Position numbers and translations under genes: made by a program. DNA of 57,075 nucleotides from the NCBI GenBank assembly GCA_902764705.1, contig CACWWZ010000043.1, positions 1 to 57,075 of the forward strand, in the 5' to 3' direction. Source of the DNA: an uncultured Prevotellaceae bacterium. Lineage in GTDB: Bacteria; Bacteroidota; Bacteroidia; Bacteroidales; Bacteroidaceae. The notes beneath the pieces were generated by a model. It was not told the origin of the DNA. It searched no databases and worked only from the letters and a program-made list of their open reading frames with translations. Positions 5,260 through 26,104 of the stretch are shown piece by piece. Position 1 is the stretch's first letter; every line of letters starts with the position of its first letter.

Positions 5260-6128
5260 GAGCGGTTGTCTTTACGTGGGTTGAGGAATTGTTGCAGGCG
5301 GTCCATCTGTATGTGGATCAGTGCCAGGAAAGCACGGAAATAGATGGCGGTCTTGATAGGCAGCGAGAGCAGAATGCTGAGGTGGCCGTAATGTTTTCGG
5401 AAGAAGATGAGCATGGCCTGATAGAACACGTGGACGTAGCGGAAGCTGGACTTCTGCGTCGACTCACCCTTGTAATGGACGATGTCGTAGGGCAGGAACC
5501 AGTTTTGCCAACCGCCCTTCAGCAAACGATACGAGAGATCGATATCCTCGCCGTACATGAAGAAGTCCTCGTCGAGCAGGCCCACCTGGTTGAGCGCCTT
5601 GCGACGCAACAGACAATAGGCTCCGCTGATGACCTCAATCTGCGAGGGTTGGTCCCACGGCAGATGACTCATATAGTAGCGCTTGGTGAATCCCAGCATT
5701 TTCAGCATCGACACCCACGGTGTAGGCAGTGCACGACGCGATTCTGGGGCTACGGTACCCTCGCGCGTCAACATGCGCACTCCTGCCCCACCCGCTTCCG
5801 GATGGGCATCCATGAAATCGAGACAGCCCTTGATGGTCGGTTCGTAGACCAACGTATCAGGATTCAGCAGCAGCACGTATTCCGATTCGGACTGACGAAT
5901 GGCTTGGTTGTTGGCACGGGCGAAGCCGACGTTTTCCTGATTGGCAATGAAGTGCACCTGCGGATACTTCGGACGCAGCGTTTCCACCGTACCGTCGCTC
6001 GAGCAGTTGTCGACGACGTAGACGTCACCGTCGATACCGTCGAGGGCTTTTTTCACACTCTCGAGGCATTCGTCCAGAATCTGGCAGACGTTATAGCTAA
6101 CGATGACTATGCTGATTTTCTTGGCCAT
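5256..6128 (-). CDS. Family 2 glycosyltransferase
   Basis: 290 aa. GT-A fold: ISIVIVSYN at the start, VDNCSSDGT, the metal-binding-type LLNPDT (DxD variant) and a later MYGEDIDLSYRL acceptor/catalytic motif. A hydrophobic C-terminus suggests membrane association. It likely adds a sugar (often rhamnose in this WbbL-like subgroup) to a lipid-linked glycan; the sugar cannot be read here. The start at 6128 (MAKKISIV) is chosen because the upstream open frame is low-complexity and lies inside the preceding gene. It overlaps the 79-aa membrane protein by 22 bp and the GNAT by 4 bp. Confidence 0.88.
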   Translation of the reverse strand: MAKKISIVIVSYNVCQILDECLESVKKALDGIDGDVYVVDNCSSDGTVETLRPKYPQVHFIANQENVGFARANNQAIRQSESEYVLLLNPDTLVYEPTIKGCLDFMDAHPEAGGAGVRMLTREGTVAPESRRALPTPWVSMLKMLGFTKRYYMSHLPWDQPSQIEVISGAYCLLRRKALNQVGLLDEDFFMYGEDIDLSYRLLKGGWQNWFLPYDIVHYKGESTQKSSFRYVHVFYQAMLIFFRKHYGHLSILLSLPIKTAIYFRAFLALIHIQMDRLQQFLNPRKDNRS

Positions 6129-9667: not shown

Positions 9668-11638
9668 ATGTACACGAAAGAAGAATTAGAAAAGCTTCCT
9701 ATCCCCGAATTGATGGAGATAGCCAGCGAACTGGGTATCAAAGTATCGCAGAACGACGAGCTGGAGAGCGTGATTTACGCCATACTCGACAAGGCCGCCG
9801 AGAATTCTGCCGCCGGTGTCAGCGCACCGAAGCGCAAGCGTACCCGTATTGCCAAAGACAACAACAAGGTATATGCCGTCAATGGTTCTGATGGCGAGAC
9901 CTACGACAAAGAAGCCACCAAGGTGGAAAAGAAGAAAAAGAAGTCGCTCGATGCCCTGATTGCCGAGCAAGCTGCCGCAGAACAAGCCGAGAAAGCCGAA
10001 AAGGAAGAACAGGCTGCTAAGGCCGAGTCTGCTGAGAATACAGAAGAAGCTGCTCCCAAAAAGCGCGGCCGTAAGAAGAAGGATGCCGAGGAAGTTGCTG
10101 CTCCTGAAGCTGCTGCGGCAGAACCCGAGAAGAAAACCCGGAAGAAGGCAACGAAAAAAGCCGAGCAGGATTTATTTGCTGAAGAAGCCCCTGTCGCTGA
10201 ATCTACAGAAATCATCCCTGAAAATGAACCCGTAGCCAGTGACGAGAGCATCTCACCCGAGATGATTGGTCAGTTGCAGGAAAAGATGGCAAAGACCAAC
10301 GAGGGTGAGCCACAAGAGACTGCCGCATCCGACGGAAGCGCTGTCTGGGAGGGTGATCCCGGTGACGGCACAGACTTCATCACCATCGTCGACCTGCCCA
10401 TCGAGGACCAGGCTGCCATTCCTTCCGTCGACATCTTCGATCGTCCGATAGTCCAGCAGACCCAGGACGAGCCCATGATGCGCGACTATAACAACATACC
10501 GCGTCAGGATTTCGATTTCGGCGACCTGATTACCGGCAACGGCGTATTGGAAATCATCCAGGACGGCTACGGATTCCTCCGTTCCAGCGACTACAACTAT
10601 CTGTCGTCACCCGATGACATCTACGTCAATCCCCAGCAAATCAAGCGCTGGAGCCTGAAGACAGGCGATGTCGTAGAATGCACCGTTCGTCCGCCGCACG
10701 ACAACGAGAAGTATTTTGCACTCTCGAACGTCATCAGCATCAACGGACGTGATCCCCAGGAGGTTCGCGACCGTGTAGCCTTCGAGCACCTCACCCCACT
10801 CTTCCCCGACGAGAAGTTCACCCTCTGCGGTGACCGGGCCACCACGAACCCCAGCGTTCGCGTCGTCGACCTCTTCTCGCCCATCGGTAAGGGCCAGCGC
10901 GCACTCATCGTGGCACAGCCCAAGACCGGTAAGACCATCCTGATGAAGGATATTGCCAATGCCATCGCCGCCAACCATCCTGAGGCATACATCATGATGC
11001 TGCTCATCGACGAGCGTCCTGAGGAGGTCACCGACATGGCCCGCACCGTCAATGCCGAGGTTATCGCCTCGACCTTCGACGAGCCCGCCGACCGCCACGT
11101 CAAGATTGCCGGCATCGTTCTCGAGAAGGCAAAGCGTATGGTAGAGTGCGGCCACGATGTCGTCATCTTCCTCGACTCCATCACCCGTCTGGCCCGTGCC
11201 TACAACACGGTAGCCCCTGCCAGCGGAAAGGTGCTCACCGGTGGTGTCGACGCCAACGCCCTGCAGAAGCCTAAGCGCTTCTTCGGTGCTGCACGTAACA
11301 TCGAGAACGGCGGTTCGCTGACCATCATCGCCACCGCTCTGACAGATACAGGTTCGAAGATGGACGAGGTAATCTTCGAGGAGTTCAAGGGAACGGGTAA
11401 CTCCGAATTGCAGCTCGACCGCATGCTGGCCAACAAGCGCGTCTTCCCGGCTATCAACCTCGTGCTCTCCAGCACCCGTCGCGACGACCTGTTGCAGGAT
11501 CAGACCACGCTCAACCGCATGTGGATTATCCGCAAGTTCATTGCCGAGATGAACCCCATCGAAGCCATGAACACCATTCGCGACCGACTGATGCAGACAC
11601 ACTCCAACGAGGAGTTCCTGCTGTCAATGAACGGATGA
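9668..11638 (+). CDS. rho: Transcription termination factor Rho, with long acidic/Lys insert
   Basis: 656 aa, far longer than the 420 aa of E. coli Rho. Order: N-terminal Rho_N helix domain ([23 protein letters not shown]), then a disordered Ala/Glu/Lys-rich insert of roughly residues 50-275. The cold-shock-like RNA-binding domain ([21 protein letters not shown]) follows, then the RecA-type ATPase with Walker [13 protein letters not shown] and Walker [12 protein letters not shown]- and R-loop regions are intact. Such inserts are common in Bacteroidota Rho. The start at 9668 (MYTKEEL) is preferred over the in-frame open stretch from 9560, which overlaps the promoter. Confidence 0.96.
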
Positions 11639-11684: not shown

Positions 11685-12719
11685 ATGCAAAGTAAAGTAT
11701 TGCTCATCTATACAGGCGGTACTATTGGAATGAACCGCAACCCGCAAACAGGTGCCTTGGAGCCACTCGACTTCGAGCACCTGTTGCTGTTTGTGCCCGA
11801 ACTCCGTCAGTTCGACATGCAGATTGACGTCCATCAGTTCAATCCACCCATCGACTCCAGCGACATGTCGCCACAGCTGTGGACGGATCTTTCGCACGTC
11901 ATTGCCGACAACTACGACCAGTATGACGGCTTCGTCGTGCTCCACGGCACCGACACGATGGCCTACACCGCATCAGCCCTCTCCTACATGCTGGAGAACC
12001 TCACCAAGCCCGTCATCTTCACCGGTTCACAACTGCCCATCCAGCAGTTGCGCACCGATGGCAAGGAAAATCTCATCACCAGCATCGAGATTGCTGCCGC
12101 CAAGGACGACCAAGGGCACGCCCGCGTTCCCGAGGTAGGCATCTACTTCAACGGTTCGCTGCTTCGCGGCAATCGCACCACGAAGCAGAGTGCCGACGAA
12201 TTCAAAGCCTTCGAATCGTTCAACTATCCCCATCTGGCCGATGCCGGCGTCAACATCACCTTTCATCAGGAGCGCATCCTGAAGCCCGACTGGGACAAAC
12301 CCATGACGCCCCACTTCCGGCTCGACAATAACGTCATCATCTTCTCGCTGTTTCCGGGCATTCGCGAGGACCTCATCCGCCACATCATCCACACGCCCAA
12401 CCTCAAGGCCATCGTCATGCGAACCTTCGGCTCGGGCAATGCCCCCCAGCGAACATGGTTGCTCAATGCGCTAAGAGAAGGCACCCGCAACGGCAAGGTC
12501 ATTGTCAACATCAGCCAATGCATGCAGGGAATGGTCGAGATGGGACGTTACGATACAGGCTTCCATCTGAAGGAAGCCGGCGTGGTCAGCGGCTACGACT
12601 CCACCGTCGAGAGTGCCGTCACGAAACTCATGTTCCTGCAGTCGCACTACGACGACCCACAAAAGGTTCGCGAAATGATGAACCGCAGCATCCGCGGAGA
12701 AATCAGCGAAATCCGGTAA
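11685..12719 (+). CDS. ansA: Type I (cytoplasmic) L-asparaginase
   Basis: 344 aa. Hydrolyses asparagine to aspartate and ammonia. The first catalytic threonine is in YTGGTIGM near the N-terminus and the second in HGTDTMAYTASALSYML, with the conserved Lys later (TDGKENLI). There is no signal peptide, so type I. The ATG at 11685 is used; a GTG one codon earlier is possible. It is probably cotranscribed with rho (46-bp gap). Its 3' end overlaps the convergent methionine sulfoxide reductase gene by 17 bp. Confidence 0.92.
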   Translation: MQSKVLLIYTGGTIGMNRNPQTGALEPLDFEHLLLFVPELRQFDMQIDVHQFNPPIDSSDMSPQLWTDLSHVIADNYDQYDGFVVLHGTDTMAYTASALSYMLENLTKPVIFTGSQLPIQQLRTDGKENLITSIEIAAAKDDQGHARVPEVGIYFNGSLLRGNRTTKQSADEFKAFESFNYPHLADAGVNITFHQERILKPDWDKPMTPHFRLDNNVIIFSLFPGIREDLIRHIIHTPNLKAIVMRTFGSGNAPQRTWLLNALREGTRNGKVIVNISQCMQGMVEMGRYDTGFHLKEAGVVSGYDSTVESAVTKLMFLQSHYDDPQKVREMMNRSIRGEISEIR

Positions 12720-13200: not shown

Positions 13201-13277
13201 AATATTTAGCATTATTTAGGGCAAACGACCTTCTTGTTTCTACAGTCGCACTACGACCGCGTGCCGGGAGAGCCTTA

Positions 13278-13313
13278 ATGACACCTATGACATGTATGAC
13301 ACTCATGACACAT
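13278..13313 (+). repeat. 9-bp iteron array A (4 units)
   Basis: Four head-to-tail 9-mers: ATGACACCT, ATGACATGT, ATGACACTC, ATGACACAT. The array overlaps the stop codon of the primase gene. It is an inverted near-copy of array B (24997-25032), matching 34 of 36 bases, and both are preceded by CCTTA. Confidence 0.8.
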
Positions 13314-15789
13314 CGGCTTGCACTTTCCGGTAACGTCCTCTTTCCGTCTGCACGATGAGCCCTTGGATTTTCCAGTTCTTCAACATCTGCTGAACCTGAT
13401 TCCTCGTGACTCCACTACCCTTGACGCTGATACTATGCTGCAAGGCGGCATCGAAACCGAAGTCTACATCCAGACGCTCATAGATAGAGTCGTTCATACC
13501 CAAGCGCTGGCGTGGTTTGCTCCCACCAACATAGTCGCGGCTGTTGAAGGCCATCTCGATGCGGTCGCGGAAGAAATACAGCGCACAATCCAGCAGGTAG
13601 TCGGCAATGACGTCGTACGCCTCCAGCAGCTGCGGGGTCTGCAACTTCAGCAGCATGGCCTTCCACACGTCGGGGTGCGTCTTCAGCTCCTTCTCGGCAC
13701 CGCTGTAGCCGTGCTTCGCGATGAGCTGTTCGGCCACCTTGCAGAGCAGGATGCAGCACACCATGCGCTGGGCCGTCACGCAGACGCGGAAGCGCTGGCG
13801 GGCGCGGACCTTGTCGTCGCTCTTGATGCACTCTATGCGCACCTGTTCCAGCCATTCGCGACCTTTCTGTTCCAGTTTCGGCAGCACCACCTCGCCCTGC
13901 ATCAGCGGCAGCAGATGGGCCACCTGGCGGATGCGCTCGGCCTGTCGGTCGGTCAGCACGTGGGGCTTGTCCTCGAGCCGTGCAAAGGTGTTGTCGGGCG
14001 TGCGGGCTACGGCGATGCGGCTCTGGAAACCGTCGGTATAATTATTCACCACACGATAGAGGGCATCGGGCGTGCCACACATCAGCACATTCCACAGCAG
14101 GTGGTCGATGTGTACGTTCACCGCCTCTGCCGAACGCGCCTCGCGGTCGTACGGACTGCCGTCGTAGCTCTGACGCAGCATCACCGAAAAGTCGTTGATC
14201 GTCGACTTCCATTTCTGTGCCACCGTGTCGGCCTCGGGGGTAAACGAGAAGGCATGCTTGCCGTCGGTATTCGCCAGTCGCTCGGCCAGGTTGGCCACCG
14301 TGTTGTTCAGCGTCAACAGGCGCACGGGCAGCTTCGGCTCCTCGGGCTGTTCCTTCTTGTTCTTCGCGGCACGCTTCCTGGCGCGCCACTCGTCCTCCTG
14401 CTGCTGGTACACCTTCTCCAGCGCCCGCAACTCTGAGGTCCACGCGGCCACGATGGGGTCTATCGAACCCTTTCCGCTGGCGAAGTCACCGGCCACGTAG
14501 GCTATCAGGTTCAGCGTGTTCTTCACGCCGTGAACGTCCAGCCGGACACCCGTTGCCAGCATACCGATGACCGGCGCGACGGCCACCAGTGCGGGCATCG
14601 CCAACTGAGGCCCCACTGCCTCTATCGAGTCCCTGACACCCTGCGGCATCTTTTTTAATGAAGAATGAAGAGTGAAGAATGAAGAATCGTCGTCCTCAAT
14701 CAGTTGAGCGTTCTCTCTTTGAGAGTGTGGCGTTGCGAAGAGCGTTGAGAGTTGAGAGTCGTCGCTGGTGTAATTTTCCGCCCTCAACGACTTTAGGAAG
14801 ATCTCCTTCTGCTTCATGTTCATCGGACGGTTCTGGTCGACGTACTTCTCGTAGAAGTTCTTGACCAGCGTCCGGCAGTCCTGCTCCTGCGAGTACTCGG
14901 GCATCTTCTGCGCCAGCACGCCCATCAGTTCCTCCTGCGCCATCATCTGGCACAGTGTCGGCAACAACAGCTTCAGCGTGTTATGACGCACCCCGTCCCG
15001 GTTCAGCGTCACCAAGTCCAACCCCGTCATCGCCAGCGTCTCGTCGAAGGCCGCCAACGTCCGAGCCGAAGGCTCGACGATGTTTGATGGCTGATGTTCG
15101 ATGTCTGACGAATTTTCTGTTTCTGAACACATTACTCCCCTCGCCCTTTGGAGAGGGGGCGGGGGTGAGGCTTTCCGCCCATCCACGTCCAGTCCGCGCT
15201 GCAGGTACGCCTCGCGCCTTTCTTCCAGTTCCGCTTCAGACAGCGCCTCCAGCCAGTGCGGTGAACGGTACACCTCCTCGTCCTTGCCCGTCACGTAGAT
15301 AAACCTTTCGGGCGTGATGCAACTCTCGTCGTAGGGTACCCCGATCTCCTTGCAGAACGCCTGCTGGGCCTCCTCGATGGTCTTGCCCTTCGGTATGCGG
15401 ATATAGATATGTACCTTCCGTCGCGCCGAATACTCTATCCTGAGCACCTGATCCTGCCAGTCCGAATACTCGTCCTCGTTCACCTCCAGCGCACGCTGGA
15501 CGGCCTGCTCCACCAGCGACTTGTCGTCCACATCGACGCACGTCATGTGGGTAAAAGCCTCGGGGATGATGTCCTTCTGGGCGCGGTGGTTGTCCTTGAA
15601 CTGCGCATAGTGCGGACAGATGTACGGCAGCAGGTCTTTCTTCTTCTCGTCGCCGGCTCGTATCGCCGTCACCATTTCCTTCAGCCAGGCTTCGGAGAGC
15701 AGCCCGTCCAGCTGCTCCCGAGTCCAACTTTCTGCATACCCGCGGTTCTTACCCCCGCCATGCTGTGTATTTCCTGATATAATTCCCAT
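13303..15789 (-). CDS. VirE_N / DUF3987 primase-like protein
   Basis: 828 aa. The N-terminal VirE_N (BT4734-like) domain covers about residues 20-200 (TCVDVDDKSLVEQAVQ, RKVHIYIRIPKGKT, ERFIYVTGKDEEVYRS). A DUF3987 P-loop-like domain follows (IAYVAGDFASGKGSID) with a Lys/Glu-rich coiled part, and a winged-helix-like C-terminus (SGVTRNQVQQMLKNWKIQGLIVQTERGRYRKV). In phages and mobile elements this architecture accompanies DNA replication; a primase/helicase role is inferred. Between the two domains are in-frame inserts: a GC palindrome (SPPPPLQRARG), a GATGTTTGATG phrase (SSDIEHQPSN) and a GAAGAAT phrase (SSFFTLHSSL). The start at 15789 (MGIISGN) is chosen. It is last in a run from the Rha gene. 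Confidence 0.8.
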   Translation of the reverse strand: MGIISGNTQHGGGKNRGYAESWTREQLDGLLSEAWLKEMVTAIRAGDEKKKDLLPYICPHYAQFKDNHRAQKDIIPEAFTHMTCVDVDDKSLVEQAVQRALEVNEDEYSDWQDQVLRIEYSARRKVHIYIRIPKGKTIEEAQQAFCKEIGVPYDESCITPERFIYVTGKDEEVYRSPHWLEALSEAELEERREAYLQRGLDVDGRKASPPPPLQRARGVMCSETENSSDIEHQPSNIVEPSARTLAAFDETLAMTGLDLVTLNRDGVRHNTLKLLLPTLCQMMAQEELMGVLAQKMPEYSQEQDCRTLVKNFYEKYVDQNRPMNMKQKEIFLKSLRAENYTSDDSQLSTLFATPHSQRENAQLIEDDDSSFFTLHSSLKKMPQGVRDSIEAVGPQLAMPALVAVAPVIGMLATGVRLDVHGVKNTLNLIAYVAGDFASGKGSIDPIVAAWTSELRALEKVYQQQEDEWRARKRAAKNKKEQPEEPKLPVRLLTLNNTVANLAERLANTDGKHAFSFTPEADTVAQKWKSTINDFSVMLRQSYDGSPYDREARSAEAVNVHIDHLLWNVLMCGTPDALYRVVNNYTDGFQSRIAVARTPDNTFARLEDKPHVLTDRQAERIRQVAHLLPLMQGEVVLPKLEQKGREWLEQVRIECIKSDDKVRARQRFRVCVTAQRMVCCILLCKVAEQLIAKHGYSGAEKELKTHPDVWKAMLLKLQTPQLLEAYDVIADYLLDCALYFFRDRIEMAFNSRDYVGGSKPRQRLGMNDSIYERLDVDFGFDAALQHSISVKGSGVTRNQVQQMLKNWKIQGLIVQTERGRYRKVQADVS
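14654..14690. repeat. GAAGAATGAAGAGT phrase inside the primase gene
   Basis: Four copies of a TGAAGAAT-like phrase lie in frame in the primase gene. The same phrase occurs intergenically at 47465-47485. Confidence 0.6.
15131..15172. repeat. GC-rich palindromic element copy 1, inside primase
   Basis: CTCCCCTCGCCC, TTTGG, AGAGGGGG and a GGGGGTGAGGCT tail. It is the same element as at 16865-16903 and, inverted, 25748-25786. Here it is read in the frame giving SPPPPLQRARG. Confidence 0.75.
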
Positions 15790-15853
15790 AATTTTTTGTT
15801 TGGTCGCTATGCCCCGCAAGGGGCACTCCTTCTCTTAATTCGATTTTTTTGAC

Positions 15854-16279
15854 TTATTCAAAAAAACGCTTTGCTTCCCATTCGCGGCGCAGTTCCAGGC
15901 CTCTCAGGCGCTTGCCGCCGGCATACACCCAGCGCTTGAATTCGCGTGTGATGGCCGTTTTCGACCCTCCTTCGCGGATCACCTTCAGCAGCGTCGAGCC
16001 CTTCAGTCGCCCGATGCCCAGATTGAACGCAAACGACGTCAGTGCATCCAGCTGTCCTTCCGTCCGCGCCACCTGCAGTTCCTTCACCGCCCGTTCGCAT
16101 TCCTCGATGTCCTTCTGCAGCAGCTCCTGCGCCCAGAATGGCGAGATCTTGTCACCCTCGCGCACGCCCTTGGTATGTCCGTAGCCGATGGTCAACACCC
16201 CTGCGGCATCCCTATAGGCCGTCAACCGCAGTCCCTCCATCATCATCAATTGTGTCAATAATCTATCACTTGTCTTCAT
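15854..16279 (-). CDS. Phage-type lysozyme (GH24, T4-like)
   Basis: 141 aa endolysin-type muramidase. The catalytic Glu lies in LMMMEGLRLTAYRDAAG (E about residue 15), followed by the Asp/Thr region in VLTIGYGHTKGV and the conserved structural block QLDALTSFAFNLGIG. No signal peptide is visible, so export would need a holin or lysis of the cell; none is seen nearby. It lies 64 bp upstream of the primase gene and 33 bp after the small basic ORF. In related Bacteroidales loci this position is usually taken by a muramoyl-alanine amidase, so this is a functional swap (inference). Confidence 0.88.
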   Translation of the reverse strand: MKTSDRLLTQLMMMEGLRLTAYRDAAGVLTIGYGHTKGVREGDKISPFWAQELLQKDIEECERAVKELQVARTEGQLDALTSFAFNLGIGRLKGSTLLKVIREGGSKTAITREFKRWVYAGGKRLRGLELRREWEAKRFFE

Positions 16280-16511: not shown

Positions 16512-17234
16512 TCAAAAATTGGGATATCCCAGTTTGGCGTTCAGGTAGTGCAGTCCGGCGATGGTCCACGTCATGTACGTGCGGATTTTCTTCTCGCCCT
16601 TCAATGAATAGCTGACATGCGTGCGCAGGGCGGTGAAGCCGCGGCCCTCGAGGTCGTCGCTCAGGTTCCAGCGGCCGCCGCGACGGTACTGGATGCCCAT
16701 GTCGCTGAGCACCTGGTTGAAGTCCCACACCGTCATGTTGAACGTCTTCGCCACCTGCGTCGCCGTCAGCGTGTCCTCGGCACCCTCGTTCAGCAGGCGC
16801 AGACCCTCGCCGATGATGTTGTCCGCCAGCCTGAGAATCTCCTTTGGCTCCGGCAGACAGTATCTACTCCCCTCGCCCGTTGGAGAGGGGTTGGGGGTGA
16901 GGCTCCGCTCCAGCTCTTCCCAGCGCAGCACTAGCTTGGCACGTGCCTCGTCGTTGAACTTCGTGGCGATGTACAGGCACTCGGTCTTGGTGAGCTGGTA
17001 GCAGGGAACCTCGCGCGTTCCACCGTTCGGCTGTTCGATGATTCGGGATGTCAATCGAAAATTTGATTTACATACTTTCACCCATGCTGGTTCCATCTTT
17101 CGGATGGCCTCCATGACATGAAAATGTTGTTTACCTGTCAGCTCGGCAATTTCGAGCGACGTCATCATTTGTGGTTGGTTGTTGTTGTCGTTGCCGACGT
17201 GTTTTGTCTGTAAAGAAATAATTGTTGTTTTCAT
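16512..17234 (-). CDS. Rha / KilAC-type phage antirepressor
   Basis: 240 aa. Residues about 22-112 match the Rha regulatory domain (MTSLEIAELTGKQHFHVMEA, then YQLTKTECLYIATKFNDEAR, RWEELE). The C-terminal half matches the phage antirepressor KilAC domain (LTATQVAKTFNMTVWDFNQVL, YRRGGRWNL, TWTIAGLHYLNAK). Such proteins counter a phage repressor. Precisely at the linker between the domains sits an in-frame palindromic element (LTPNPSPTGEGS). It is followed on the same strand by the 55-aa ORF, lysozyme and primase. Confidence 0.85.
   Translation of the reverse strand: MKTTIISLQTKHVGNDNNNQPQMMTSLEIAELTGKQHFHVMEAIRKMEPAWVKVCKSNFRLTSRIIEQPNGGTREVPCYQLTKTECLYIATKFNDEARAKLVLRWEELERSLTPNPSPTGEGSRYCLPEPKEILRLADNIIGEGLRLLNEGAEDTLTATQVAKTFNMTVWDFNQVLSDMGIQYRRGGRWNLSDDLEGRGFTALRTHVSYSLKGEKKIRTYMTWTIAGLHYLNAKLGYPNF
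16865..16903. repeat. GC-rich palindromic element copy 2, inside the antirepressor
   Basis: CTCCCCTCGCCCGTTGG, AGAGGGGTTGGGGGTGAGG. It encodes LTPNPSPTGEG on the minus strand between two folded domains. Confidence 0.8.
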
Positions 17235-19003: not shown

Positions 19004-19903
19004 CTACCTGTCATATAATCGAAGCGTCTCGGTTATGATGTCCTTCATTTTCTGCCTGACATCAGCAGGTTCAAGCACTTCGATACCATTGCGGAACGAT
19101 AACAATTTGTTTAGGAAATCGCCGGTGGGACGGATGTCGAACGAGAAGTCGGTATAATTGTCGCCCGACTGCAGTTCGCACTGCGAGTGGTGCAGCGGCA
19201 GTGTGCGCAGATAGTGGGGCGTACGGTCGTAGGCACGTACCACGACATGAGCCATAGGAACATCGATGGTCAGCACGCCGAAATAATCCGCAAAATAATC
19301 CTCTGGCGAGAAGTCCTCGGGCATCTCGAAGGTATCGTCTGTGGGCTCCATCATGTTCATGCGGTCATCCAGTGCGTAGCACCGCAGCTGATCCTCGTCA
19401 TTCCGCGCCAGCAGATACCAACGCTGCTGCGACCGTTTTAGAACGTAAGGACAAACGGTTTTCACGTAACCCTCATCCTCAAACTTCTGGTACCCCATAC
19501 GCAGCCGATGGTCAGTCTTCATGGCACGGATGATAGGCTCCAGAAACTCCTCGCCAGCAGGCGCGTACTCCATGAGGATGCGGTCGCGAATCGAGGCACT
19601 GTCAGCCAGCATGCCATGAACGGCGAGTGTTGAGAACAGATGTCGTTCGATGCTGTCGTTGTTCAGCACCTCGGGGTTGCTGATGTAATATTTGTGCGTT
19701 TTGGGTTCGCAGTCGATGATGACGCCAAACATGTCGAGGATAGCGTCACGATGCCGGTTAAACGACGTCCGGGGCAACGGATTGCCCTCGGCCACCTTAG
19801 CCTCCCGCCACTTCTGATCGAGTTGCGCGAGGGTTAGTTTACCATACGTCTTGAACGTGTTGATAATCCAGATATACTGGTTGAAAATCAGTGCCGGTTT
19901 CAT
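19004..19903 (-). CDS. WYL-domain transcriptional regulator
   Basis: 299 aa. N-terminal winged-helix region (YGKLTLAQLDQKWREA ... PRTSFNRHRDAILDMFG), a central WYL domain with the signature in QQRWYLLARNDEDQL, and the WCX-like C-terminal part (VVVRAYDRTPHYLRTLPL). WYL regulators sense ligands or nucleic acids and often control defence or mobile loci. It sits 27 bp after the 52-aa peptide gene and may be the last gene of the GLUG-peptide-WYL run. Confidence 0.88.
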   Translation of the reverse strand: MKPALIFNQYIWIINTFKTYGKLTLAQLDQKWREAKVAEGNPLPRTSFNRHRDAILDMFGVIIDCEPKTHKYYISNPEVLNNDSIERHLFSTLAVHGMLADSASIRDRILMEYAPAGEEFLEPIIRAMKTDHRLRMGYQKFEDEGYVKTVCPYVLKRSQQRWYLLARNDEDQLRCYALDDRMNMMEPTDDTFEMPEDFSPEDYFADYFGVLTIDVPMAHVVVRAYDRTPHYLRTLPLHHSQCELQSGDNYTDFSFDIRPTGDFLNKLLSFRNGIEVLEPADVRQKMKDIITETLRLYDR

Positions 19904-20126: not shown

Positions 20127-21578
20127 TTATTTGATAACCACTTTAAGTCCGTTATGGATGTAGAGTCCCTTGGCACTTGGTTTGCCATTGAGGCGGGTGC
20201 CGCTCAGCGTGTACCACGCACCATCAGAATCCGTTAAATCCGTGAAATCTGTGGTTGTTATCTTCGTGGTGCTGCCGTCGGCGCTGACCAGGACGACGCT
20301 GATGCTGGCGGGCATGTCGCCTGTCGAGGCACGGTGTGCAGGGGCGTTGGTCGTTGTCCACGGATTGTCGGTGCCCGTATAGGTCAGGTACGAGCGCAGG
20401 GGCTTGATATGGGCTCCCTCGGCCAGCATCACGAAGTCGCCGGCCTCGACGTCCGTGGCGCCGTCCGTGGCCTTGCCGCTGGTGGCTGCGAAGCCATAGT
20501 CACGGCCGCAGTCCGCTGCCGCCCACGTCTTCTCGGCATAGACGCCCTTGAACTGCCAGTCGCCGTTGGTGGTTGTTCCTGCGCTGATGCTGGCAGCTGC
20601 CTCGCCGTGGAACAGCACAGGCTTGTGAGCCTCAGTGCCTGCGGGTACGAAGAGATACGGCGTGTTGGCCGAGAGCGTCGTGCCGGTATATTCGTTCATG
20701 GTGGCTATCCACTTGCCTTTATTGCCGTCGTAGGTCACGCCGCCGAAGGTGTAGTATTTACCCTCTGTGGCGCTTGGTGTATAAGCAAACGGGAATACGA
20801 CGGTTGAAGCCTTGCCGCCCGTGAAATCGCGGTGGAACGCCACCTTGCCGCTCAGGTTTGTGGGCACGTTCGCTGCATCGCTCAAGATGGTGGCCTCCAC
20901 CGCGCCGTCGTTGTCGGTGATGTCTGCTCCATTGCAGCCGATGTCGCAGGGCCTACCGAGTGCAGTGCAGTCGCTATAGTAGTTATGGCTCAGCGTGCCG
21001 CCTGGGTTAAAACCCACAATGGCGCCAACAAAAAAATTATCGCCATAGATGGTGACGCCCACGGCGAGGCAGTTCTTAACATTATTATCGTTTTCGTTAC
21101 AGCCCACGATGCCGCCACACTCTTGTGCTTGGCTGAGGGTGGCGCTACTGGTGCAGCCATCGACGGTGCCATGGTTATAACCCGCGATGCCGCCGTGACG
21201 AGATGGATTGTTACCTGTGGCGCCGATAAGGACATTGGCGGTGACATGGCAGTTCTCGATAGTACCACCATTGGCCCCTGCTATGCCGGCAACATTATAT
21301 TTACCCGTGATGCGGGCATCAGCGAGGGTGACATTCCGGACACAGCCCTCGTTGATGCAGCCGAAGAGGCCCTGACATAGATCCGACGAATAGATTCGGA
21401 TGCCGCTGATGGTATGGCCCTGGCCGTCGAAGGTACCACTGAAAAACTCAGGCCCCGTTCCGATGCGAGTAAAATTGTTCTCCTGGCTGTCGGCGGCGTC
21501 CCAGTCGGTGGCGTAGGGGTAGGCAATGTCGTTCATCAGCTTGAAGTACGTGCCGTGGTAGCCCTCGCCGCCGTTCAC
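20127..21578 (-). CDS. GLUG protein part 3 (last repeat block and C-terminal cap)
   Basis: The true reading frame extends upstream of the first Met to the second junction near 21680. After one GLUG block there is a beta domain (GGKASTVVFPFAYTPSATEG, YLFVPAGTEAHKPVLF) typical of Prevotella secreted proteins. The terminal motif AWYTLSGTRLNGKPSAKGLY may be an anchoring or export signal. Confidence 0.5.
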   Translation of the reverse strand: MNGGEGYHGTYFKLMNDIAYPYATDWDAADSQENNFTRIGTGPEFFSGTFDGQGHTISGIRIYSSDLCQGLFGCINEGCVRNVTLADARITGKYNVAGIAGANGGTIENCHVTANVLIGATGNNPSRHGGIAGYNHGTVDGCTSSATLSQAQECGGIVGCNENDNNVKNCLAVGVTIYGDNFFVGAIVGFNPGGTLSHNYYSDCTALGRPCDIGCNGADITDNDGAVEATILSDAANVPTNLSGKVAFHRDFTGGKASTVVFPFAYTPSATEGKYYTFGGVTYDGNKGKWIATMNEYTGTTLSANTPYLFVPAGTEAHKPVLFHGEAAASISAGTTTNGDWQFKGVYAEKTWAAADCGRDYGFAATSGKATDGATDVEAGDFVMLAEGAHIKPLRSYLTYTGTDNPWTTTNAPAHRASTGDMPASISVVLVSADGSTTKITTTDFTDLTDSDGAWYTLSGTRLNGKPSAKGLYIHNGLKVVIK

Positions 21579-21654
21579 GCGCTGGGCCAGCAGGTCGAGG
21601 CCTGCGGCGTTAGTGATGACGTAGGGATGATCTGCGCTGCCGTCGGCGGCAGGA

Positions 21655-22650
21655 TCAGCGCTGACACCCCAGAGGTCCGGTTTCGGCAGGATCGGTGCCG
21701 TCCTTCGTCACAATATAGCCTTCATGGATGCAGCCCGTAGGCAAGGTGCCATTGTAGCTCAGGGTGACGGTGGTGCCATCGACGACGCTGATGGTGCCAC
21801 CCTGGTTGACCATGATACCCGTGGCGGTGATGTCGCTGGCGAGGGTCAGGGTGTAGAGGGTACCGGGTACCGCGCCGTCGTTGGCAGTGACATCACCATC
21901 ACTGCAGCCGATGCCGCTAGTATTACCGCCCACGGTGCAGCCGCTGTAGTAGTTATGGCTCAGCGTGCCGCCTGAGTTAAAACCCACAATGGCGCCAACC
22001 TCATCATCGCCATAGATGGTGACGCCCATGGCGAGGCAGTTCTTAACCACACTTTTATCGTATTCTTTACAGCCCACGATGCCGCCACACTCTTGTGCTT
22101 GGCTGAGGGTGGCGCTACTGGTGCAGCCATCGACGGTGCCATGGTTCTGACCCGCGATGCCGCCGTGATTATATGTATTGTCACCTGTGGCGCCGATAAG
22201 GACATTGGCGGTGACATGGCAGTTCTCGATAGTACCACCATTGGCCCCTGCTATGCCGCCAACATTCTCTTTTCCCGTGATGCGGGCATCAGCGAGGGTG
22301 ACATTCCGGACAGTGCCGTGAATGTTGCCGAAGAGACCCTGACATAGATCCGACGAATAGATTCGGATGCCGCTGATGGTATGGCCCTGGCCGTCGAAGG
22401 TACCACCGAAAGGCTCACCACCCGTTCCGATGCGCGTGAAGTTGTTTTCCTGGCTGTCGGCGGCGTTCCAGTCGGTGGCGTAGGGGTAGGCAATGTCGTT
22501 CATCAGCACAAAGTACTTGCCGTAGTAGCGCTCACCGCCGTTCATGCGCTGGGCCAGCAGGTCGAGGCCTGCGGCGTTAGTGATGACGTAGGGATGATCT
22601 GCGCTGCCGTCGGCGGCAGGATCAGCGCTGACACCCCAGAGGTCCGTCAC
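21655..22650 (-). CDS. GLUG protein part 2 (internal repeat block, frameshifted)
   Basis: 331 aa open frame with no signal peptide, beginning at a GTG within the junction (TDLWGVSADPAADGSADHPY). It carries one full GLUG block and also ends GPLGCQR. It is nearly identical to the block in part 3 over about 600 bp. It is better read as a piece of one long gene than as its own gene. Confidence 0.5.
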   Translation of the reverse strand: MTDLWGVSADPAADGSADHPYVITNAAGLDLLAQRMNGGERYYGKYFVLMNDIAYPYATDWNAADSQENNFTRIGTGGEPFGGTFDGQGHTISGIRIYSSDLCQGLFGNIHGTVRNVTLADARITGKENVGGIAGANGGTIENCHVTANVLIGATGDNTYNHGGIAGQNHGTVDGCTSSATLSQAQECGGIVGCKEYDKSVVKNCLAMGVTIYGDDEVGAIVGFNSGGTLSHNYYSGCTVGGNTSGIGCSDGDVTANDGAVPGTLYTLTLASDITATGIMVNQGGTISVVDGTTVTLSYNGTLPTGCIHEGYIVTKDGTDPAETGPLGCQR

Positions 22651-24799
22651 TGGTGCCGTCCTTCGTCATGGTATATACGGGGCCGTAGCCTTCGGGCAAG
22701 GTGCCGGTGTAGCTCAGAGCAACGGTGGTGCCAGGCCTGTAGTACGGCGTGCTGCCGACGGTAATAGTTGGTGTGGCTGTAGCTGTGATGCCGTCAGCCA
22801 CTGTCAGGGTATGGCACTGGATGATGTTTGAGGTGACGGTGACATTGCTGGCGGGCATAGTGAAGGAATAAACGCCGTTGCTCTCGGCGACCTCGACGGT
22901 TTCGGCAGGATCGGTGCCGTCCTTCGTCACAATGATGGTGGTGCCTGGACTGTAGTACGGCGTGCCACTGATGGTGAACACCGGTGTGGGCTCGGCAGTG
23001 ATGCCGTCGGCCAGTGTCAGGGTATGGATTGATACGGCACCGTCGTTGTCGGTGATGTCTGCTCCATTGCAGCCGATGCCAGTGGTTGCCGTGCGTACGG
23101 TGCAGTTGTAGTAATAGTTATGCGACAGACTGCTGTTATAGAAGACACTGCCGGCGATGACACCGAGCTGTCCATAACCTACAATGCGTGCGTCGGTCAC
23201 GATGACGTTGCTGACGACACCCGTTTTGCCAACATAGCCAAAGAGTCCCTGGCGGCTGGCGGCAGAGTTGCTGCCGCTCTTATAAATACGAATGCCGCTG
23301 ACGACGTGGTTCTGGCCAAGGAACGTGCCGTTGAAGGGGTGTGAAGAACTGATGTAGTTGCCAATGGCAGTATAGTTGTTCTCGGTGTCCGCACCCTCCT
23401 CGTTAGCAGCTTTGTGGGCATAGGCAATGTTGGCCCCCAGCTTGAAGAATTTACCGGCATAGTCCTCGCCATTGTTCACGCGCTGGGCCAGCAGGTCGAG
23501 TTGTTCGGGATTATAGATCATGTAGGCGTGGTCGGCATCGTCGCCAGTGCTCTCCATAGCCCAGTCGATGGGATAGCGGTTCGAGGCACTGACGGTGGCA
23601 TCGCCGTAGCCCATGGTCAGGATGAATCCGTCGGTGGCATTGCCGCTGACGGAGCCCGACGTAGTGGCATAGCCAGCGGTGTAGCCGGGGGCGAACGAAC
23701 CAACGTTGTCAAGTCCGCCGCTCAGGGTGATGGCCTTCCCGAAGACGTAGTACGAGGTGCCGCTGTAGGTGACGGTGGCATCTGTCGTTGTGGTGATGCC
23801 CGTGCCCATGGTGAGCGTAAAGACGGGCATGGCGCCGTCGTCGGCGGTGATATTGCTATTCTCGCAGCCTTTGTCGATGGCATTCGCCACGCCGGCTACG
23901 GTGCAGTCGCGGTAGTAGTTGCGCCGGACGGTGCCGGTACTGTTGGTATGGCCCATGATGGCTCCGTAATCATTACTGCTGGCTTCGCAAATGTTGGCAC
24001 CGATGACAAAGTTATCGGTCATGGTGCCCTTGTTGAAGCCCGCGATGCCGCCGCAGTATCTGCTCTTTTCGCTACCGATGTTACTGATTGTAACAGAACT
24101 GGTACAATTCTTGACTGTGCTGCCATCAGGGGTACTCGAACCGTTAATTCCGTTGCGACCCACGATGCCGCCAAGAAATTGGGTGATAACATTAGGCCGT
24201 GTGCCGACGACGGCGACCTTGGCCGTGGCTTGGCAGCCGTCAATGGTACCGCCTTCGTTCCAGCCCACAATACCGGCGCTGTAACCACCTCCGGCGATAC
24301 GGGCATCGTCGAGAACGACGTTCTTCACCTCAGCACCACTGCCTATCAAGCCGAAGAGACCGAAGCCCTTACTTGTTTCGGTGCTATAGATGCGGATGCC
24401 GCGGATGGTCATACCGTTGCCGTCGAAGTGACCGCAGAAGTAACGGCAATTGGCGGGAGTGCCAGAATAAAGGCCGATGGCGGTGTAGTTGTTCTCCTGG
24501 CTCGTGGCGTCGTCCCATGCGGTGGTGGGTCTCAAAGCTGTGTTCGTGGCCTCGTAGAAGTCGAGGTCGTTCATCAGCTTGAAGTACTTGCCTTCGTAGT
24601 TCGTGCCGCTGTTCACGTCGGCGGCCAGCTTGTTCAGGTCGTCGATGGTTTTGATCTGGTAGGGCTTTCCTGACGTGCCTTCATCGCCCGAATAAATCGG
24701 GAACTGAACCGTTGCCGCCCACGCCGTCGTGGCTGTGAGCATCATCAAGAGCAACATCATGGTTGCCTTGGTTAAGATTGATGTAAATCTTGTTTTCAT
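22622..24799 (-). CDS. GLUG protein part 1 (signal peptide and first repeats)
   Basis: 725 aa. The signal peptide (MKTRFTSILTKATMMLLLMM up to TTAWA) is cleaved before ATVQFP. Then come two blocks of the form YQIKTIDDLNKLAADVNSG and YMIYNPEQLDLLAQRVNNGE with GLUG repeats, separated by MBG/InlB-like linkers (FTLTMGTGITTTTDATVTYS). It ends out of frame in GPLGCQR. If translated alone it would be a shorter secreted protein lacking the C-terminal cap. Confidence 0.7.
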   Translation of the reverse strand: MKTRFTSILTKATMMLLLMMLTATTAWAATVQFPIYSGDEGTSGKPYQIKTIDDLNKLAADVNSGTNYEGKYFKLMNDLDFYEATNTALRPTTAWDDATSQENNYTAIGLYSGTPANCRYFCGHFDGNGMTIRGIRIYSTETSKGFGLFGLIGSGAEVKNVVLDDARIAGGGYSAGIVGWNEGGTIDGCQATAKVAVVGTRPNVITQFLGGIVGRNGINGSSTPDGSTVKNCTSSVTISNIGSEKSRYCGGIAGFNKGTMTDNFVIGANICEASSNDYGAIMGHTNSTGTVRRNYYRDCTVAGVANAIDKGCENSNITADDGAMPVFTLTMGTGITTTTDATVTYSGTSYYVFGKAITLSGGLDNVGSFAPGYTAGYATTSGSVSGNATDGFILTMGYGDATVSASNRYPIDWAMESTGDDADHAYMIYNPEQLDLLAQRVNNGEDYAGKFFKLGANIAYAHKAANEEGADTENNYTAIGNYISSSHPFNGTFLGQNHVVSGIRIYKSGSNSAASRQGLFGYVGKTGVVSNVIVTDARIVGYGQLGVIAGSVFYNSSLSHNYYYNCTVRTATTGIGCNGADITDNDGAVSIHTLTLADGITAEPTPVFTISGTPYYSPGTTIIVTKDGTDPAETVEVAESNGVYSFTMPASNVTVTSNIIQCHTLTVADGITATATPTITVGSTPYYRPGTTVALSYTGTLPEGYGPVYTMTKDGTSDGPLGCQR

Positions 24800-24996: not shown

Positions 24997-25032
24997 ATGT
25001 GTCATAGGTGTCATACATGTCATAGGTGTCAT
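24997..25032 (-). repeat. 9-bp iteron array B (4 units)
   Basis: Read on the minus strand: ATGACACCT, ATGACATGT, ATGACACCT, ATGACACAT, preceded by CCTTA. It points away from array C. The whole non-coding span 24800-25416 holds the GLUG leader and promoter, arrays B and C, the palindrome and the HU promoter, with no credible gene. Confidence 0.85.
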
Positions 25033-25066
25033 TAAGGTTTTTGAATCGTGAGGGGGGATTTATATA

Positions 25067-25104
25067 CACTATTATAATAAATATATATATTTATTATAAT
25101 AGTG
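25067..25104. repeat. Perfect 38-bp AT-rich palindrome
   Basis: The half-site CACTATTATAATAAATATA is followed at once by its exact reverse complement. Only the outermost CACT/GTG bases are not A or T. It is centred between arrays B and C and could be a cruciform or a DNA-unwinding element. Confidence 0.85.
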
Positions 25105-25130
25105 AGTATTTTTCACACCAGAAATGCTTA

Positions 25131-25166
25131 ATGACATGTGTGACACATACGACATGTGTGACACAT
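25131..25166 (+). repeat. 9-bp iteron array C (4 units)
   Basis: ATGACATGT, GTGACACAT, ACGACATGT, GTGACACAT, preceded by CTTA. It is in the opposite orientation to array B, on the far side of the palindrome. Confidence 0.82.
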
Positions 25167-25245
25167 TTTTATTTGCAAATTATATCTAAACACTTTTTAA
25201 CTAAAAGTTCGCATGAAAATGCTTTTCTATATGCTGAAAAATTCG

Positions 25246-25253
25246 TACCTTTG
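25246..25253 (+). promoter_or_regulatory. -7 box of the HU-like gene
   Basis: TACCTTTG, leader of about 155 nt before the ATG at 25417. No conserved riboswitch is recognised in the leader. Confidence 0.65.
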
Positions 25254-25747
25254 CAGTGTCGATAATAAAGATGGAACGGCGCGCAAGGCAGCGAAATATT
25301 TGTCTCAGGCCTGCAAAAATTTTCTCCCTGCCCAGGGCGCAAAAAATCCCTCCGGAAATCGGCAAAACGAGTTAATCAACCACAAACTACAAATTTTCGA
25401 ATTATTTTAACAAACTATGGCAATGAAGGTAAAGGCAGTAGAGAAGCTGCTGAAGTTTGACAAGAATTCTGCGGGCGAGTACCGCTATGTGATGGCTCCC
25501 GAGCTGTATTCCAGCCTGAGTCAGAAGAAGGTCATCAAGGAGGCTGCCCTGCGCTCGGGCGTCAGTCAGGGTGTGATGCAGGCCTGCTGGGATGCTGCCG
25601 GCGAGGTGATCAAGGCGTGGGCAACGGAAGGCCACTCGGTGGCACTGCCCGGACTGGGTACCATGCGCTTCGGACTGCGCTCGAAGTCGGTGGACGACGT
25701 GAACAAGGTGAAGTCCTCGCTCACGCTGAGGTCGAGGATGATAACAG

Positions 25748-25786
25748 CCTCACCCCCGACCCCTCTCCAACGGGCGAGGGGAGTGG
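25748..25786. repeat. GC-rich palindromic element copy 3, in the HU tail
   Basis: CCTCACCCCCGACCCC, TCTCCAACGGGCGAGGGG, inverted relative to copies 1 and 2. In the ancestral tail frame it encodes LTPDPSPTGEGS. Confidence 0.8.
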
Positions 25787-25854
25787 TAACACTGGTGGCA
25801 GCACTGGTGGCGAAAGCAACGGCGGCGGATTCGAGTCGGGCGGAGATTAAAAGG

Positions 25855-25893
25855 GGTGGGCCCACCCCGACCCTCCCAAGGGGAGGGGGGGGC
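25855..25893. repeat. Second GC palindrome after the HU tail
   Basis: GGTGGGCCCACCCCGACCC, TCCCAAGGGGAGGGG. It is related in style to the copies above but with a different core (CCCAAGGGG), and lies just after the tail-frame stop. Confidence 0.6.
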
Positions 25894-25990
25894 AAACCTC
25901 ACGCAGAGGCGCAGAGTGCGATAACTACTTAACTTCATAACTACAAAGGAGTTGAGCAAATGCGAAACTTGAATAATAGGAGATAATACG

Positions 25991-26104
25991 ATGAAGAAAA
26001 ATAATTTTTGGGAGGTGGTGATTCGCGTGGCGATCGCGGCACTGACGGCGGCACTGACCGCACTGGGAACAACAAGCTGTATGGGAATGGGACCGCTTTT
26101 CTAA
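25991..26104 (+). CDS. Smalltalk protein
   Basis: 37 aa: a polar start MKKNNFWEVVIR, one hydrophobic segment VAIAALTAALTALGTTSC and the short end MGMGPLF. This matches the smalltalk family, tiny membrane or lipoprotein-like proteins found beside HU/VirE/amidase loci across Bacteroidales; function unknown. An AGGAG site precedes the ATG. The TSC could act as a lipobox. It is the last gene of the island before the terminator. Confidence 0.8.
   Translation: MKKNNFWEVVIRVAIAALTAALTALGTTSCMGMGPLF

Follow-up and report, generated by a model that had tools for sequence, protein, structure and literature searches.

A probable replication origin built from opposed iteron arrays and an A/T palindrome in an island of an uncultured Prevotellaceae bacterium

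What could be the function of a DNA element in which two arrays of short repeats point away from each other on both sides of an A/T palindrome? Such an element occupies positions 25000-25163 of a 57,075-nucleotide stretch from an uncultured Prevotellaceae bacterium (contig CACWWZ010000043.1, here C43, of assembly GCA_902764705.1), which is referred to as the window in its entire length and which also carries a gene for an HU-HIG family DNA-binding protein and a gene with a DUF3987 domain, here named REP (Table 1). Judging from sequence comparisons, this array-palindrome-array element is likely the replication origin of an integrated, REP-encoding island. It is probably the place where REP starts copying the island, since the arrays change in step with the DNA-reading end of this protein.

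The initial annotation of the window had described two opposed four-unit arrays around a perfect 38-bp AT palindrome, and this organisation was confirmed. Array B is regular, featuring TGTCAT at 25000, 25009, 25018 and 25027 (in minus sense ATGACANNT), as had been claimed for both arrays, but array C is more degenerate (25131 ATGACA, 25140 GTGACA, 25149 ACGACA and 25158 GTGACA). The palindrome contains A or T at 34 of its 38 bases and is not exceeded in length by any other perfect palindrome of the window, with an arm of 19 bases versus a maximum of 10 in 2,000 shuffles of the surrounding 70 bp. Searching the window with a three-unit array motif (up to three mismatches) gave six matches, all of them within arrays B, C and a third array, A, where the REP gene ends; the mean after dinucleotide shuffling was 0.01. 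An Rfam scan yielded eight matches, all under the gathering scores, including a microRNA model on the palindrome.

The protein reading these arrays is most likely REP, because array divergence among related islands tracks its winged helix and not HU. In the 18 islands featuring HU, element and REP together (out of 48 elements examined, 23 with HU and 30 with REP), the element arrays co-varied with the winged helix (Mantel r 0.54, p 2e-4; 0.53 when controlling for the helicase), weakly with the helicase (r 0.23, p 0.015) and not with HU (r -0.02, p 0.54). Mantel tests leave some effects of descent, but these apply equally to both controls, HU and helicase. Loci in which the 3' end of REP is complete were further inspected for an array behind the gene (at least three GTCA in 40 bp, at most 150 bp past the stop codon), which was present in 63 of 76 loci and never in reverse sense; among 7,172 control windows, 53 carried such an array in the same and 97 in the reverse sense. 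Across the 63 loci, winged-helix distance accounted for array distance over and above the distance of the helicases (partial r 0.32, p 2e-4), and the partial r of 21 like-sized helicase windows against array distance reached a maximum of 0.10. Moreover, array A best resembled the element of its own locus in 10 of the 12 loci having both (permutation p ≤ 5e-5; four more loci, in which no array A could be read, were excluded). With R in the recognition helix, the base before GTCA was T or A in 22 loci, the opposite in 3 and mixed in 10; with H, it was G in 17 loci, the opposite in 3 and mixed in 2, and five loci featured other residues. The earlier suggestion of a protein-assembly site of a replicon is well supported by these data, as arrays of fixed geometry recur next to the gene of a primase-helicase, and their divergence follows the winged helix of this protein.

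REP is the proposed initiator. The motifs DxD, SxxxxxH and D, which mark archaeo-eukaryotic primases (AEP), are represented by D96, D98, S131 and D164, invariant in 37 sequences, and by the nearly invariant H137, and the same residues are present in 23 REP N-termini; a Foldseek search with the N-terminus gave no match at E ≤ 0.001. The central part contains a DUF3987/MCM-like AAA+ domain, for which Foldseek listed Cch of the staphylococcal cassette chromosome mec (SCCmec; 5dgk), having an MCM-like helicase fold, at rank 4 (E 2.7e-3). In the structure model, a helix-helix-strand-strand pattern appears at residues 789-832, within the putative winged-helix domain of approximately residues 765-838. 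A search of the sequences of solved structures with the REP profile returned none at 0.1, and REP is under purifying selection. A second REP family, 24% identical, was found in two genomes sharing one different iteron class (GTAACAA); here, REP and its element share a contig at a distance of approximately 18 kb, with no array in the 180 bp past the stop codon.

Is this arrangement restricted to a single genome? As the letters of the iterons change between genomes, searches by structure and by protein were used in addition to searches by motif. In 60 genomes (the own genome and 59 relatives), the iteron pattern gave, outside the own genome, only single sites with two mismatches in 10 genomes, and reversed-pattern controls matched in 5. 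A DNA search of 299 genomes of the same genus gave some match in 143, which is not a count of elements, many matches being weak or confined to the HU promoter and leader; several of the best loci displayed this design as well, their iterons and palindromes differing in sequence. A set of 80 loci (the best 80 of 183) was fetched by alignment of the DUF3987 protein in named genomes, which avoids the bias of fetching by DNA similarity. According to their titles, these are mostly metagenome-assembled genomes of Prevotella and Bacteroidales, many from ruminants, and also include P. ruminicola KHT3 and Prevotella MA2016, tf2-5 and ne3005. An outward pair of GTCA arrays, 60-150 bp apart, was present in 22 of the 80 loci, inward and same-direction pairs in none, and the reversed-sequence control gave none in 1.29 Mb. 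Palindrome arms of at least 10 bp (up to two mismatches) occurred in 15 of these 22 pairs, and perfect arms of at least 17 bp in nine. With a looser script, 16 outward pairs with palindrome arms of at least 10 bp and one inward arrangement were found in 100 loci.

All fetched loci together provided 51 distinct pairs, one of which is a chance pair in a viral contig (L080, gap 73 bp; L and G numbers denote loci and genomes). The remaining 50 elements, some of which are close relatives of each other and part of which were fetched by similarity to the window element, keep an inter-array gap of 89-111 bp despite differing letters. Perfect palindrome arms of at least 17 bp occur in 22 of them, compared to a maximum of 11 in shuffles, and the inner flanks of both arrays read approximately TTAAGGATTTCGGA. 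The 9-bp period reported initially holds for the usual outer spacing, but the middle step varies: among the 100 arrays, 9-7-9 (21) and 9-6-9 (19) are the commonest.

These elements are embedded in islands whose usual order is HU, reading away from the element, followed on the other side of the element by variable cargo, small conserved genes and an antirepressor, REP and array A; a conserved gene of approximately 134 amino acids and a lytic enzyme lie past array A. The window departs from this order by a lysozyme-like gene upstream of REP. For 31 of the 50 elements, REP lies within the sequence covered; its orientation is away from the element in 30 cases, while the closest REP of L203 is a different one that points to the element. 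The distance is 1.6-11.5 kb, except for a REP remnant at 257 bp in L017. The 19 elements without REP in the sequence covered comprise ten 3-kb loci and nine longer ones. Among 45 cargo proteins of 15 islands (45 of 59 open reading frames listed), Pfam matches included restriction systems of type III and of DpnII type, each in a different single island, as well as RhuM, WYL and others; the PADLOC comparison covered the first 25 of 179 families. In the window, GLUG-motif proteins occupy 20127-24799 between the WYL gene and array B, the cargo place of other islands.

The HU gene was originally thought to lie directly right of the element. It is located to the right, but approximately 250 bp past array C, so that the wording was loose. 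An HU-HIG-like gene was found within 1.1 kb of 23 of the 50 elements, reading away in all 23, and seven of the 27 elements without HU have less than 500 bp of sequence on one side. The expectation that the arrays always flank HU/VirE genes is not fully borne out, as 19 of the 50 elements lack REP in the sequence covered and some HU-linked elements carry quite different iterons. No match to the window HU was found at 1e-7 in 246 other genomes of the order. Binding of the HU-HIG protein to a centromere-like or nucleoprotein site that serves segregation or the folding of the chromosome would fit this adjacency, but is very improbable given that array divergence does not follow HU, that 20 elements with at least 500 bp on both sides show no HU, and that array A sits at REP. 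Of the initial interpretation, the part concerning HU thus has the weaker support: HU is a frequent neighbour which may bend the site and would not set its specificity.

The iteron pattern has 15 matches in the own genome (3.42 Mb, 85% complete). Of these, 13 fall into three places, on contigs C43, C1 and C4, and two are single sites, so that the motif is not evenly scattered, as it might have been if unrelated to these loci. Motif arrays were found in the window and in the loci on C1 (L016) and C4 (L017) only. The palindrome of L016 is 40 bp long, exact and unlike that of the window in its letters. L017 is a shrunken island copy with the REP end, Rha, WYL, element and leader pieces in window order; its WYL piece (9930-10033) is 98% identical to the window and its REP and Rha pieces 74-79%, which suggests recent exchange between islands. 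A second HU copy, 91% identical (L301, G000:C24), has its own 38-bp palindrome (947-984) and inverted arrays, here of another iteron class (ATACAGA type), and a further DUF3987 gene (L134, G000:C89) is followed at approximately 5792-5830 by an array of yet another class (TTACATTC type). A search of the own genome for a TTACA-type pair gave no exact matches other than those in the array next to its REP; four further sites had three mismatches, with eight control matches.

For the mechanism, we envisage that the C-terminal winged helix of REP would bind the iterons of B and C, that REP rings, loaded from both sides, would meet at the A/T palindrome, and that the latter would melt or be extruded as a hairpin. 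The MCM-like ATPase could then unwind and the N-terminal primase-like domain could prime, while array A may be bound by REP as well, probably in a controlling or accessory capacity.

Several observations weigh against an origin role. An array after REP was not found by the above rule in 13 of the 76 loci, the palindromes of 28 of the 50 elements are imperfect, and seven of the 22 protein-fetched pairs reach only arms of 8-9 bp with up to two mismatches, a measure without a shuffle control. The nine longer loci hold an element without REP, three of them (L232, L242 and L243) being cut by a contig end 1.5-4.1 kb away. The element iterons of L290 differ from the repeat after its 42%-identical REP, and a third array predicted for genomes with other iteron classes was not found in G244, G272 and G212 with patterns of fixed spacing; these other classes are less well linked. 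Viral contigs gave 29 iteron-pattern loci with the one chance pair mentioned above and no REP relative, a DNA search of plasmids and phages gave no match, and REP relatives were absent from plasmids and present among phages in one record. The latter is an unannotated 4-kb 'Bacteriophage sp.' contig from human stool (L218, MT839699.1), with 61% identity over 64% of the query. These searches gave no indication that the islands occur in a free form.

The chief rival remains an operator role, in which REP or a repressor of the same site would, by binding the arrays, regulate two divergent promoters, one for HU and one for the cargo/REP operon, with the palindrome as a twin-promoter or insulating element and no start of replication. 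The element indeed takes a typical operator place between HU, where present, and the cargo side, which likewise speaks against an origin; a promoter-like TAnnTTTG box follows array C, and array A lies just ahead of the next gene. We nevertheless regard this option as unlikely, since opposed, mostly four-unit arrays at a near-constant gap, with an A/T core that often forms a palindrome although its letters change, would be more than is expected of an operator, the protein found to co-vary is a primase-helicase, and some elements have no REP nearby.

Such REP-less elements in intergenic places would suit a site of mobility, with the inverted arrays as ends of a small mobile or recombination element that is moved in trans and spreads the islands. 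In the single-contig genome G069, for instance, one locus (L225) comprises an HU-like gene, the pair, approximately 8 kb, REP and an array, and another (L228) the element alone, with approximately 9.4 kb of sequence on either side; L017 likewise holds its island pieces in unchanged order. This explanation is improbable, as a search for tyrosine integrases (PF00589) found none on C43 and three elsewhere in the own genome, the annotated gene clusters include no transposase (though no model search was aimed at transposases), the co-varying protein is not a recombinase, and REP-less copies can be remnants, as in L017.

How does the likely origin compare to known systems? Origins of phage-inducible chromosomal islands (PICIs) have two iteron sets flanking an AT-rich region 3' of rep (PMC6092414), and the iterons of Staphylococcus aureus pathogenicity islands (SaPIs) are read by the C-terminal domain of Rep (PMC7581432). 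Both share with the present islands a primase-helicase initiator module with a C-terminal DNA-binding domain, iterons at the rep 3' end and accessory cargo. In contrast, the two-set element here is separated from REP by the cargo, with only one set after rep, its core is often palindromic, and an HU gene often adjoins. Since both an integrase on C43 and a double array immediately 3' of rep were looked for and neither was found, although the two-set organisation itself is there, the loci were not classed as PICIs, but grouped with the iteron-origin kind. For pRN1, the proposed origin is a stem-loop conserved in structure and not in sequence, served by an AEP-helicase-winged-helix protein (ORF904; PMC4234260). 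This would match REP and an origin structure kept despite low sequence conservation; the pRN1 stem-loop, however, is described there as 100 nt long, 3' of the gene and without iterons, and the A/T palindrome of the present islands lies between iterons and at another place. By analogy, the window element appears to join PICI-type and pRN1-type origin designs. Cch/Cch2 of SCCmec share the MCM-like helicase fold, and Cch2 binds to direct repeats downstream of its own gene (PMC7581432), with other helicase families, a separate priming polymerase, recombinase genes and one described repeat site as differences.

A further parallel is offered by phage P4, whose alpha protein combines primase, helicase and winged helix and whose ori1 and crr are two separate sets of approximately 8-bp iterons; array A as a second site would correspond to crr. 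P4 differs by its Toprim primase and its integrase, and it is not known to have a symmetric palindrome module.

A literature search, with most subscription literature outside its scope, found no description of Prevotella HU/DUF3987 loci or their arrays, and in the accessible part of PMC10434189 genes of this type appear only as table entries. Whether the islands constitute a class of replicons that is widespread in Prevotella and so far undescribed (with HU, an origin, cargo that can be exchanged and in some cases comprises restriction systems, and a REP of PrimPol, MCM-like and winged-helix domains) seems to us evenly balanced. Such a class would have a new composite origin, with PICI-like opposed iterons on both sides of a pRN1-like palindrome whose symmetry is better conserved than its letters; the winged helices of REP and the iterons would co-diversify into specificity classes, so that several islands could coexist per genome and might spread without an integrase of their own. 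If true, Prevotella HU/DUF3987 loci would gain a cis-acting origin with its cognate initiator, as well as a natural series of matched iteron and winged-helix variants useful for recognition rules. Origin activity could also be tested readily, vectors for Prevotella might be built on this basis, and a shuffling of cargo, including restriction systems, would be suggested for replicating islands missed by standard searches for mobile elements based on integrases, capsids or plasmids.

Table 1. Positions of the element and of neighbouring features in the window.
Feature	Position	Strand	Remarks
Iteron array A	13278..13310	+	overlaps the stop codon of REP (DUF3987 gene)
REP	13303..15819	-	N-terminus with primase motifs, MCM-like helicase (DUF3987), putative winged helix at the C-terminus; proposed initiator
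Lysozyme-like gene	15854..16279	-	clusters with a member matching Pfam Phage_lysozyme
Rha/KilAC antirepressor-like gene of the island	16512..17234	-	
WYL-domain regulator gene of the island	19004..19903	-	
Iteron array B	25000..25032	-	four units, 9-9-9 spacing; palindrome-facing end TTAAGG
A/T palindrome, exact 38 bp	25067..25104	no strand	proposed melting or hairpin core; relatives' palindromes have other letters
Iteron array C	25131..25163	+	inverted to B; four degenerate units; preceded by CTTA
Promoter-like TAnnTTTG box and HU leader of about 110 nt, conserved	25235..25416	+	
HU-HIG family DNA-binding protein gene	25417..25932	+	
37-amino-acid open reading frame	25991..26104	+	'smalltalk' is the label of the initial annotation, not derived from analysis of this frame

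Just outside array A, at approximately 13238-13260, a short copy of part of the asparaginase gene end (approximately 12633-12655) was observed, perhaps a trace of island insertion. An empty site was sought via the neighbouring Dcp gene, but as no asparaginase or GAF gene adjoined it in the loci of 29 relatives (approximately 1.5 kb on each side), none could be defined.

The HU box and leader (25235-25346) are kept in many genomes, even without an HU gene downstream (L016). For the leader RNA, no conserved fold was found, with four predicted pairs and zero showing changes on both sides. Tandem arrays with a period of approximately 77 bp, whose units match the promoter-like part of the leader, occur in G074:C38, G295:C143, G165:C57 and G168:C3. 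Finally, a G+C-rich 22-bp near-palindrome (CCCCTC..GAGGGG) lies inside the REP, Rha and HU frames (15137-15158, 16869-16890 and 25760-25781), i.e., at three places of the window versus 0.09 matches expected by shuffling.
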